In this document: one piece after another, positions 48,414-49,095 of the stretch
Numbering within the stretch: position 1 is the stretch's first letter
Layout: each line of letters starts with the position of its first letter
Origin: Candidatus Methanoplasma termitum
GTDB taxonomy: Archaea > Thermoplasmatota > Thermoplasmata > Methanomassiliicoccales > Methanomethylophilaceae
Assembly: GCF_000800805.1 (NCBI RefSeq)
Contig: NZ_CP010070.1
Coordinates: 806,001 to 870,000 of the forward strand
Length of the DNA stretch: 64,000 nt
Direction of reading: 5' to 3'
Notes under the pieces: generated by a model
What the model saw: the letters and a program-made list of their open reading frames with translations, nothing else
The model's database searches: none
What the model was told of the DNA's origin: nothing
Translations under genes and position numbers: made by a program

Positions 48414-48605
48414 TACGTCGGCAGCCGATGCTGATGGGACCTTTTAATCAAATTATTGCTTAGCGAGCATTAGGATTCTATGTTCTTACTTTACAAAAAA
48501 AGTATTCAGTTGACAAATATAGAAGATTTCAAAGAACATGAAATGAAAAAATGAGAAGAGTTGCGTTCAGAACGCAGTTTAAAGATATCAGCTAGTTACG
48601 CAAGG

Positions 48606-48774
48606 TGGGAGTAGAGGGATTTGAACCCCCGTCAGCGGGTTTCCACCACGGAGGGAGCTACCCTCCGCGAAATTATGAGTCATCGCTCCAGTTATTCATC
48701 AACTGTCAGCAAGCTCTTTTCAATCACGCTCGATAACTGGAGCCCGCCAGTCTGCCAGGTTAGCCTATACTCCC
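48606..48774 (-). tRNA. tRNA-Trp (CCA) with 96-nt intron
   Basis: Exons are 48737-48774 and 48606-48640; the intron is 48641-48736, after anticodon-loop position 37. Acceptor GGGAGTA pairs with TACTCCC, the anticodon stem is GCGGG/CCCGC and the loop starts CTCCAG. Euryarchaeal tRNA-Trp introns are known box C/D guide RNAs. Here box C-like GTGATTGA, D' CTGA, C' TTGATGA and D-like ATGA can be seen, and the guide AACTGGAG pairs with the anticodon loop so that C34 lies five bases from box D. A strong CGGAGGG/CCCTCCG hairpin lies in the 3' part of the intron. One D-stem pair is mismatched. Confidence 0.9.
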
Positions 48775-48790: not shown

Positions 48791-48898
48791 TCACTTCTTG
48801 CGTAACTTCGCTGCTCTCTTTCTTCTTCTCATTTTCTTCTTGCGCCATTTCCAACGCTGGTTACCGCGTTTTTTCCAGGCGCGTGAGCTTCTCTTCAT
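48791..48898 (-). CDS. rpl41e: Ribosomal protein eL41
   Basis: This 35-aa protein, MKRSSRAWKKRG..., has about half its residues as Lys or Arg, with a continuous basic helix (KKKMRRRKRAAKLRKK). That is the expected form of the minimal ribosomal protein eL41. ATG at 48898, TGA at 48791. It is tucked between tRNA-Arg and tRNA-Trp, all on the minus strand, and may share a transcript with one or both. Confidence 0.8.
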   Translation of the reverse strand: MKRSSRAWKKRGNQRWKWRKKKMRRRKRAAKLRKK

Positions 48899-48944
48899 GC
48901 TATTTCCTCTTGACGATGTCTGTCGCCGCAACGACGCATCTTTA

Positions 48945-49043
48945 GCGGGCCCGTCGGGACTTTCGGCCCCCTTGACAGGAACTTTCGAACCCGAGGCGTC
49001 TGGCTTAGAAGGCCAGCGCTATATCCTGGCTAAGCCACGGGCC
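48945..49043 (-). tRNA. tRNA-Arg (TCT) with 24-nt intron in the T-loop
   Basis: Acceptor GGGCCCG pairs perfectly with CGGGCCC. The anticodon loop CTTCTAA gives TCT between CTGGC and GCCAG. The T-stem TCGGG/CCCGA is separated by 31 nt rather than 7. The extra 24 nt (48959-48982) form a bulge-helix-bulge: T-stem, 3-nt bulge AGT, central helix TTCG/CGAA, 3-nt bulge AAA, inner helix GTTCC/GGGGC. Cutting each bulge after its second base restores the canonical T-loop TTCGAAT. The insertion is at position 59/60, an unusual site. Confidence 0.92.
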
Positions 49044-49095
49044 CCGCCAACCTTCATCTACTACTATCATTTAAAGGTTTACATGAGTTCTTGCA

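Follow-up and report, generated by a model that had tools for sequence, protein, structure and literature searches.

A predicted bulge-helix-bulge intron in the T-loop of the only tRNA-Arg(TCT) gene found in Candidatus Methanoplasma termitum, and its recurrence in Thermoplasmata

Is the insert in the T-loop of the tRNA-Arg(TCT) gene of Candidatus Methanoplasma termitum a spliced intron and, if so, which enzyme serves it and how old is it? The gene lies on the minus strand of the window, the whole 64,000-nucleotide stretch analysed (contig NZ_CP010070.1, positions 806,001 to 870,000). Positions are those of the window, except where the prefix C1 is given. A previous sequence-only reading had placed an intron-bearing tRNA-Arg(TCT) at 48945-49043; the gene and its structure stand, but the coordinates were one base low. 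From the start of the acceptor stem through the discriminator base, the gene spans 48946-49044 on the minus strand, with TCT as the anticodon in its sequence and the layout GGGCCCG-TG-GCTT...-CTTCTAA-...-TCGGG-TTCGAA[AGTTCCTGTCAAGGGGGCCGAAAG]TCCCGA-CGGGCCC-G. The parts of the precursor are given below, with the bulge-helix-bulge (BHB) motif as placed by minimum free energy (MFE) folding.

48946..49044, minus strand: pre-tRNA-Arg(TCT), 99 nt, from the sequence and a covariance-model match at C1:854946-855044; single copy in the genome
48984..49044, minus strand: 5' exon, ending ...TCGGGTTCGAA, 100% identical in most intron-bearing relatives
48960..48983, minus strand: intron AGTTCCTGTCAAGGGGGCCGAAAG, 24 nt, at tRNA position 59/60, where intron-less orthologues read TTCGAA directly followed by TCCCGA
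48946..48959, minus strand: 3' exon TCCCGACGGGCCCG (T60, 3' T-stem, 3' acceptor stem and discriminator G), from the sequence
48986..48989, minus strand: 5' strand of the central BHB helix, UUCG, equal to T54-G57 of the T-loop (exon), from MFE folds and pair counts
48962..48965, minus strand: 3' strand of the central BHB helix, CGAA (intron), from MFE folds; 4 bp in 31/31 family sequences, with a U-G wobble in two instances
48983..48985, minus strand: 5' bulge AAA from MFE folds, with the predicted 5' splice site after its second base, between 48984 and 48983, by the known BHB rule
48959..48961, minus strand: 3' bulge AGU from MFE folds, with the predicted 3' splice site after its second base, between 48960 and 48959
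48966..48982, minus strand: inner intron hairpin GUUCCU-GUCAA-GGGGGC, whose stem covaries and whose loop varies freely among relatives

The two halves of the T-stem, TCGGG and CCCGA, are separated by 31 nt instead of the usual 7, and the sequence bears out the split stem and the 24-nt intron described earlier. Removal of the intron in silico yields the T-loop TTCGAAT and a normal cloverleaf of 75 nt, the same form as that of the intron-less orthologues; the excision product foreseen by the sequence-only reading thus matches the T-loop of relatives at the same locus. The gene is missed by ARAGORN at default settings, and the Rfam tRNA model gives a weak match of 31.1 bits.

Whether the whole precursor or the isolated T-arm is folded, the MFE structure is a canonical BHB stacked on the T-stem, reproducing exactly the earlier description of a 4-bp UUCG/CGAA helix, two 3-nt bulges and an inner helix, the last pairing GUUCCU with GGGGGC. 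Two 3-nt bulges with a 4-bp helix between them, located at the exon-intron boundaries, are what defines an archaeal BHB intron, and both are found here. Among 31 distinct intron-bearing precursors of the family Methanomethylophilaceae, standard pairs occupy 99.6% of the cells, and the central helix is paired in all of them. In the inner helix, three pairs change on both sides, with 18 cells carrying two-sided changes. None of 500 shuffles reaches the paired percentage or the covariation score, while 84 of the 500 reach the count of three two-sided-change pairs.

The closed genome (one contig of 1,488,669 bases, 99.96% complete) contains 46 RF00005 matches, at which ARAGORN with introns allowed reports the arginine anticodons CCT, TCG, GCG and CCG. 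No second Arg(TCT) gene is present among these 46 loci, so that the intact copy named earlier as the finding that would speak against the locus was not encountered. Because no second gene was found, AGA decoding appears to depend on this lone interrupted tRNA-Arg(TCT) gene. Other introns of the genome are located at position 37/38, in the tRNA for Trp and probably also in those for Tyr, Leu and Met.

Relatives had been proposed as a check, and 102 genomes of the family were compared with the spliced tRNA, after which the loci were read. The match runs at full length in some genera and stops at the junction in others. The intron is present in 46 genomes from 10 genera, with a length of 19-27 nt, and absent from 30 genomes of three genera (g5, g9 and g12); it is the majority state in the family. 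In the intron-less orthologues, the T-loop sequence is identical to that of the predicted spliced product. The 5' exons are 100% identical across many genera, and the introns are alike within a genus and differ between genera. Two elements around the gene are common to both states.

49070..49075, minus strand: TTTAAA at -31, resembling an archaeal TATA box and kept in nearly all of the 76 loci of the family
48791..48898, minus strand: very basic 35-aa open reading frame (ORF) MKRSSRAWKKRGNQRWKWRKKKMRRRKRAAKLRKK just downstream, marking the orthologous locus in both intron states

Where the retrieved sequence extends that far, the TATA-like box lies about 31-36 nt upstream in intron-bearing and intron-less family loci alike. 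Since this box and the downstream ORF are shared, the intron-bearing and intron-less genes of the family are, on sequence grounds, one orthologous locus.

The expectation that such introns would be rare in Euryarchaeota-type methanogens fails: besides being the majority state in the family, the intron recurs in the order and the class. The covariance-model search for T-loop introns suggested earlier was carried out with a model of the precursor on 400 genomes of the class Thermoplasmata, and representative loci were read. Within the order, Arg(TCT) T-loop introns occur in families f2-f6, many with a second intron at 37/38. Outside the order, they occur in f7, f8, f14, f19, f21, f24 and f32. 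In genus g30 of f6 (two genomes read), the 37/38 intron alone is retained in Arg(TCT), and a plain 75-nt Arg(TCT) was read in genus g22 of f5. Other tRNAs of the class with T-loop introns are Gly(TCC), Lys(TTT), Lys(CTT), Arg(CCG), Asp, Glu and Ala. The pattern GGTTCRAA-N8..38-CGRAANTCC gives 54 matches in 32 genomes, compared with 2 for the reversed control, the matches having been checked as tRNA in part. The earlier remark that T-loop bases double as half of the splice helix is confirmed, but its wording that the intron is fitted to tRNA-Arg is weak, because TTCGAA is the general T-loop consensus and the same arrangement is seen in Gly, Lys, Asp and other tRNAs. Introns might have jumped between Arg(TCT) and Gly(TCC), but the likeness of their sequences may be due to no more than the common BHB.

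A full 4-bp central helix is found in 113 of the 121 distinct T-loop introns that were measured; the remaining 8 carry A.G at the last pair of this helix, all with TTCAAA T-loops. Two other hits were attributed to chance. The inner helix, by a simple ungapped count, is often shorter than 3 bp, mostly through internal mismatches or bulges. The A57.G-mismatch introns (L163-L168, L176 and L338) come from lineages in which the EndA genes checked are fused two-repeat ones, and a relaxed motif cut by such an enzyme is possible. Further genes were noted on reading. The Lys(TTT) genes of f6 and f5 (L328, L331 and L333) appear to have introns in the D-loop and T-loop alike, and the f5 T-loop intron has a conserved apical loop, CGGCCTTCCCG, on a varying stem. 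tRNA-Asp(GTC) genes with T-loop introns occur in many metagenome-assembled genomes labelled Thermoplasmata (L179, L180, L187, L196, L199, L202, L203 and others) and are mostly invisible to ARAGORN until spliced in silico. Apparent T-loop introns are also seen in tRNA-Ala(TGC) of uncultured archaeon and Woesearchaeota records (L194 and L233), possibly outside Thermoplasmatota.

The type of the splicing endonuclease, whose identification had also been suggested, can be read from one gene.

C1:1225476-1226525: single EndA gene, 348 aa, with two PF02778 and two PF01974 domains

The catalytic region KTGFKYG...HAKYLV...GVKKE is found in the second (C-terminal) repeat only. The nearest solved enzymes include the Archaeoglobus dimer 1R0V/2GJW, which aligns along the EndA length, and the alignment places no counterpart to the 10-residue insertion of the A. 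pernix catalytic subunit 3P1Z_B, the crenarchaeal-specific loop. By its architecture, the single EndA is classed as a fused two-repeat enzyme of the alpha'2 type. A gene for the RtcB ligase is also present in the genome. In a survey of 40 Thermoplasmata genomes, EndA is matched in 39, with two matches in one reading frame in 37; the two f22 genomes each show a single match, in a frame of 292 aa, and one draft genome of the 40 gives no EndA match.

Cleavage, ligation, the exact cut sites and splicing in the cell are deduced as follows. T54-G57 of the future T-loop would pair with CGAA of the intron, forming a canonical BHB stacked on the T-stem. The single alpha'2-type EndA would cut each bulge after its second base, and RtcB would join A59 to T60 to give the standard T-loop TTCGAAT. 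The intron would have been inherited vertically from an early ancestor within Thermoplasmata, followed by several precise losses. It is very probable that the sole tRNA-Arg(UCU) gene carries a BHB intron spliced by EndA and RtcB, which has been inherited vertically and lost several times.

Some points weigh against this interpretation. The fold energies are only modestly better than those of shuffled sequence (z = -1.66 and -1.04), the motif is not strict everywhere, as the A.G mismatch in the central helix of the distant family f14 indicates, and alpha4 and alpha2 enzymes are said to serve BHB introns at the canonical position only (PMC4090602). The z-scores by themselves are no proof of structure; it is the comparative data that carry the case beyond chance. 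The insert might also never be removed, the tRNA functioning with an enlarged T-loop hairpin or the gene being a pseudogene, as could be read from the failure of ARAGORN to see a tRNA and the poor one seen by Rfam. Such an explanation is scarcely credible for the lone Arg(TCT) gene found in the genome, with invariant exons, a conserved promoter, both bulges and the 4-bp helix in 31/31 distinct sequences despite a varying loop, and intron-less orthologues that equal the exact spliced sequence.

The age of the spliced intron has been weighed on an EndA protein tree of 31 genomes, a single-gene tree with many weak and some long branches. This tree requires four changes of intron state, and well-supported branches force at least three of them. 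Presence is taken as ancestral and absence as loss because the outgroups carry the intron. Independent gains at 59/60 of Arg(TCT) in each lineage, with the T-loop consensus supplying half of a BHB, are doubtful: gains at this site do occur, 59/60 being used in Gly, Lys, Asp, Arg(CCG), Glu and Ala tRNAs of different lineages, yet the Arg(TCT) intron is found in f1-f6 as well as f7, f8, f14, f19, f21, f24 and f32, and one old gain with at least three losses is simpler, as far as a single-gene tree with weak inner branches allows. A rival view, in which the intron arrived recently or is mobile and spreads horizontally between Thermoplasmata of gut and soil, would agree with the identical 5' exons of many genera and with the several tRNA types of the class that have T-loop introns. 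It is judged unlikely, and considerably more so than independent gains, because the locus and its neighbours are constant in the family and the introns are genus-specific; moreover, no enzyme is encoded, and the order's other families and further orders carry the intron too. The T-loop intron is thus no rarity but an old character that was later lost several times.

Downstream of the gene, the 35-aa ORF has no Pfam match; by eye it is eL41-like, and in most of the family loci with a retrieved stretch that covers the site, it separates tRNA-Arg from tRNA-Trp. Two further features are located in this region.

48905-48940, minus strand: hairpin in the stretch that separates the 3' end of the tRNA from the small ORF
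48604-48774, minus strand: tRNA-Trp(CCA) with a 96-nt intron at 37/38, 170 nt downstream of tRNA-Arg, found by ARAGORN with introns allowed

Similar stems with altered bases are seen by eye at the hairpin in relatives of the same genus, and a processing or regulatory element is possible. The tRNA-Trp gene is missed by ARAGORN defaults, and its intron carries the box C/D-like motifs TGATGA and CTGA. The euryarchaeal tRNA-Trp intron is a known guide-RNA intron, in which box C/D motifs are expected.

Under the accepted co-evolution model, non-canonical introns go with endonucleases that carry extra loops and are heterotetrameric or of the epsilon2 type. The class-wide T-loop introns, together with a single fused alpha'2-type gene in the sampled genomes, suggest that tolerance of position is separable from tolerance of motif and make the model testable. 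On balance, Thermoplasmata are likely to be a second large archaeal group with many old introns outside the anticodon loop (at 59/60, probably in the D-loop, often two per gene), spliced by alpha'2 enzymes without specificity loops. If this is true, the textbook limit of the alpha'2 type to 37/38 introns is a sampling artefact. The rule that alpha2 enzymes serve canonical positions only is likewise read as a sampling effect, since the motif stays canonical and the position alone changes; the simplest reconciliation with the reviews is that the motif, and not its location, is what alpha'2 enzymes demand. In addition, an ordinary tRNA finder misses such genes, so the tRNA sets of these archaea can look incomplete.

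In the literature, 59/60 is a listed non-canonical intron site (PMC4090602). Reports of non-canonical introns came almost entirely from Crenarchaeota, the exceptions being three thermophilic methanogens of the euryarchaea (Chan 2011; PMC3218864), and Korarchaeum was described in 2014 as alone among archaea in having non-canonical introns together with an alpha2 enzyme (PMC4033280). Minimal BHB substrates are cut by the dimeric EndA of Ferroplasma, a member of Thermoplasmata, and the activity of archaeal EndA is reported to be independent of a tRNA mature domain (PMC8707768). Searches of the open literature, a scope that excludes subscription journals, supplements and GtRNAdb, turned up no T-loop introns described from Methanomassiliicoccales or Thermoplasmata; the novelty of the class-wide pattern is judged against that literature only, and some of the introns may already be listed by tRNAscan-SE 2.0.

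Compared with the 59/60 introns of Crenarchaeota/Thermoproteota (Marck and Grosjean 2003, Sugahara 2008, via PMC4090602), the position, the BHB motif and the short length are alike. However, the enzymes there are of the (alpha beta)2 type and the motifs are often relaxed, whereas a predicted fused alpha'2 enzyme and a canonical motif, kept in the family, are found here. The canonical 37/38 introns of euryarchaea share the hBHBh' motif and presumably the enzyme, but their outer helix is the anticodon stem; here it is the T-stem, with the T-loop consensus acting as the exon half of the central helix. Korarchaeum (PMC4033280) and Methanoplasma both combine a dimeric-type enzyme, here assigned by sequence type, with introns outside 37/38, and differ in that the EndA of Methanoplasma is without the corresponding insertion.
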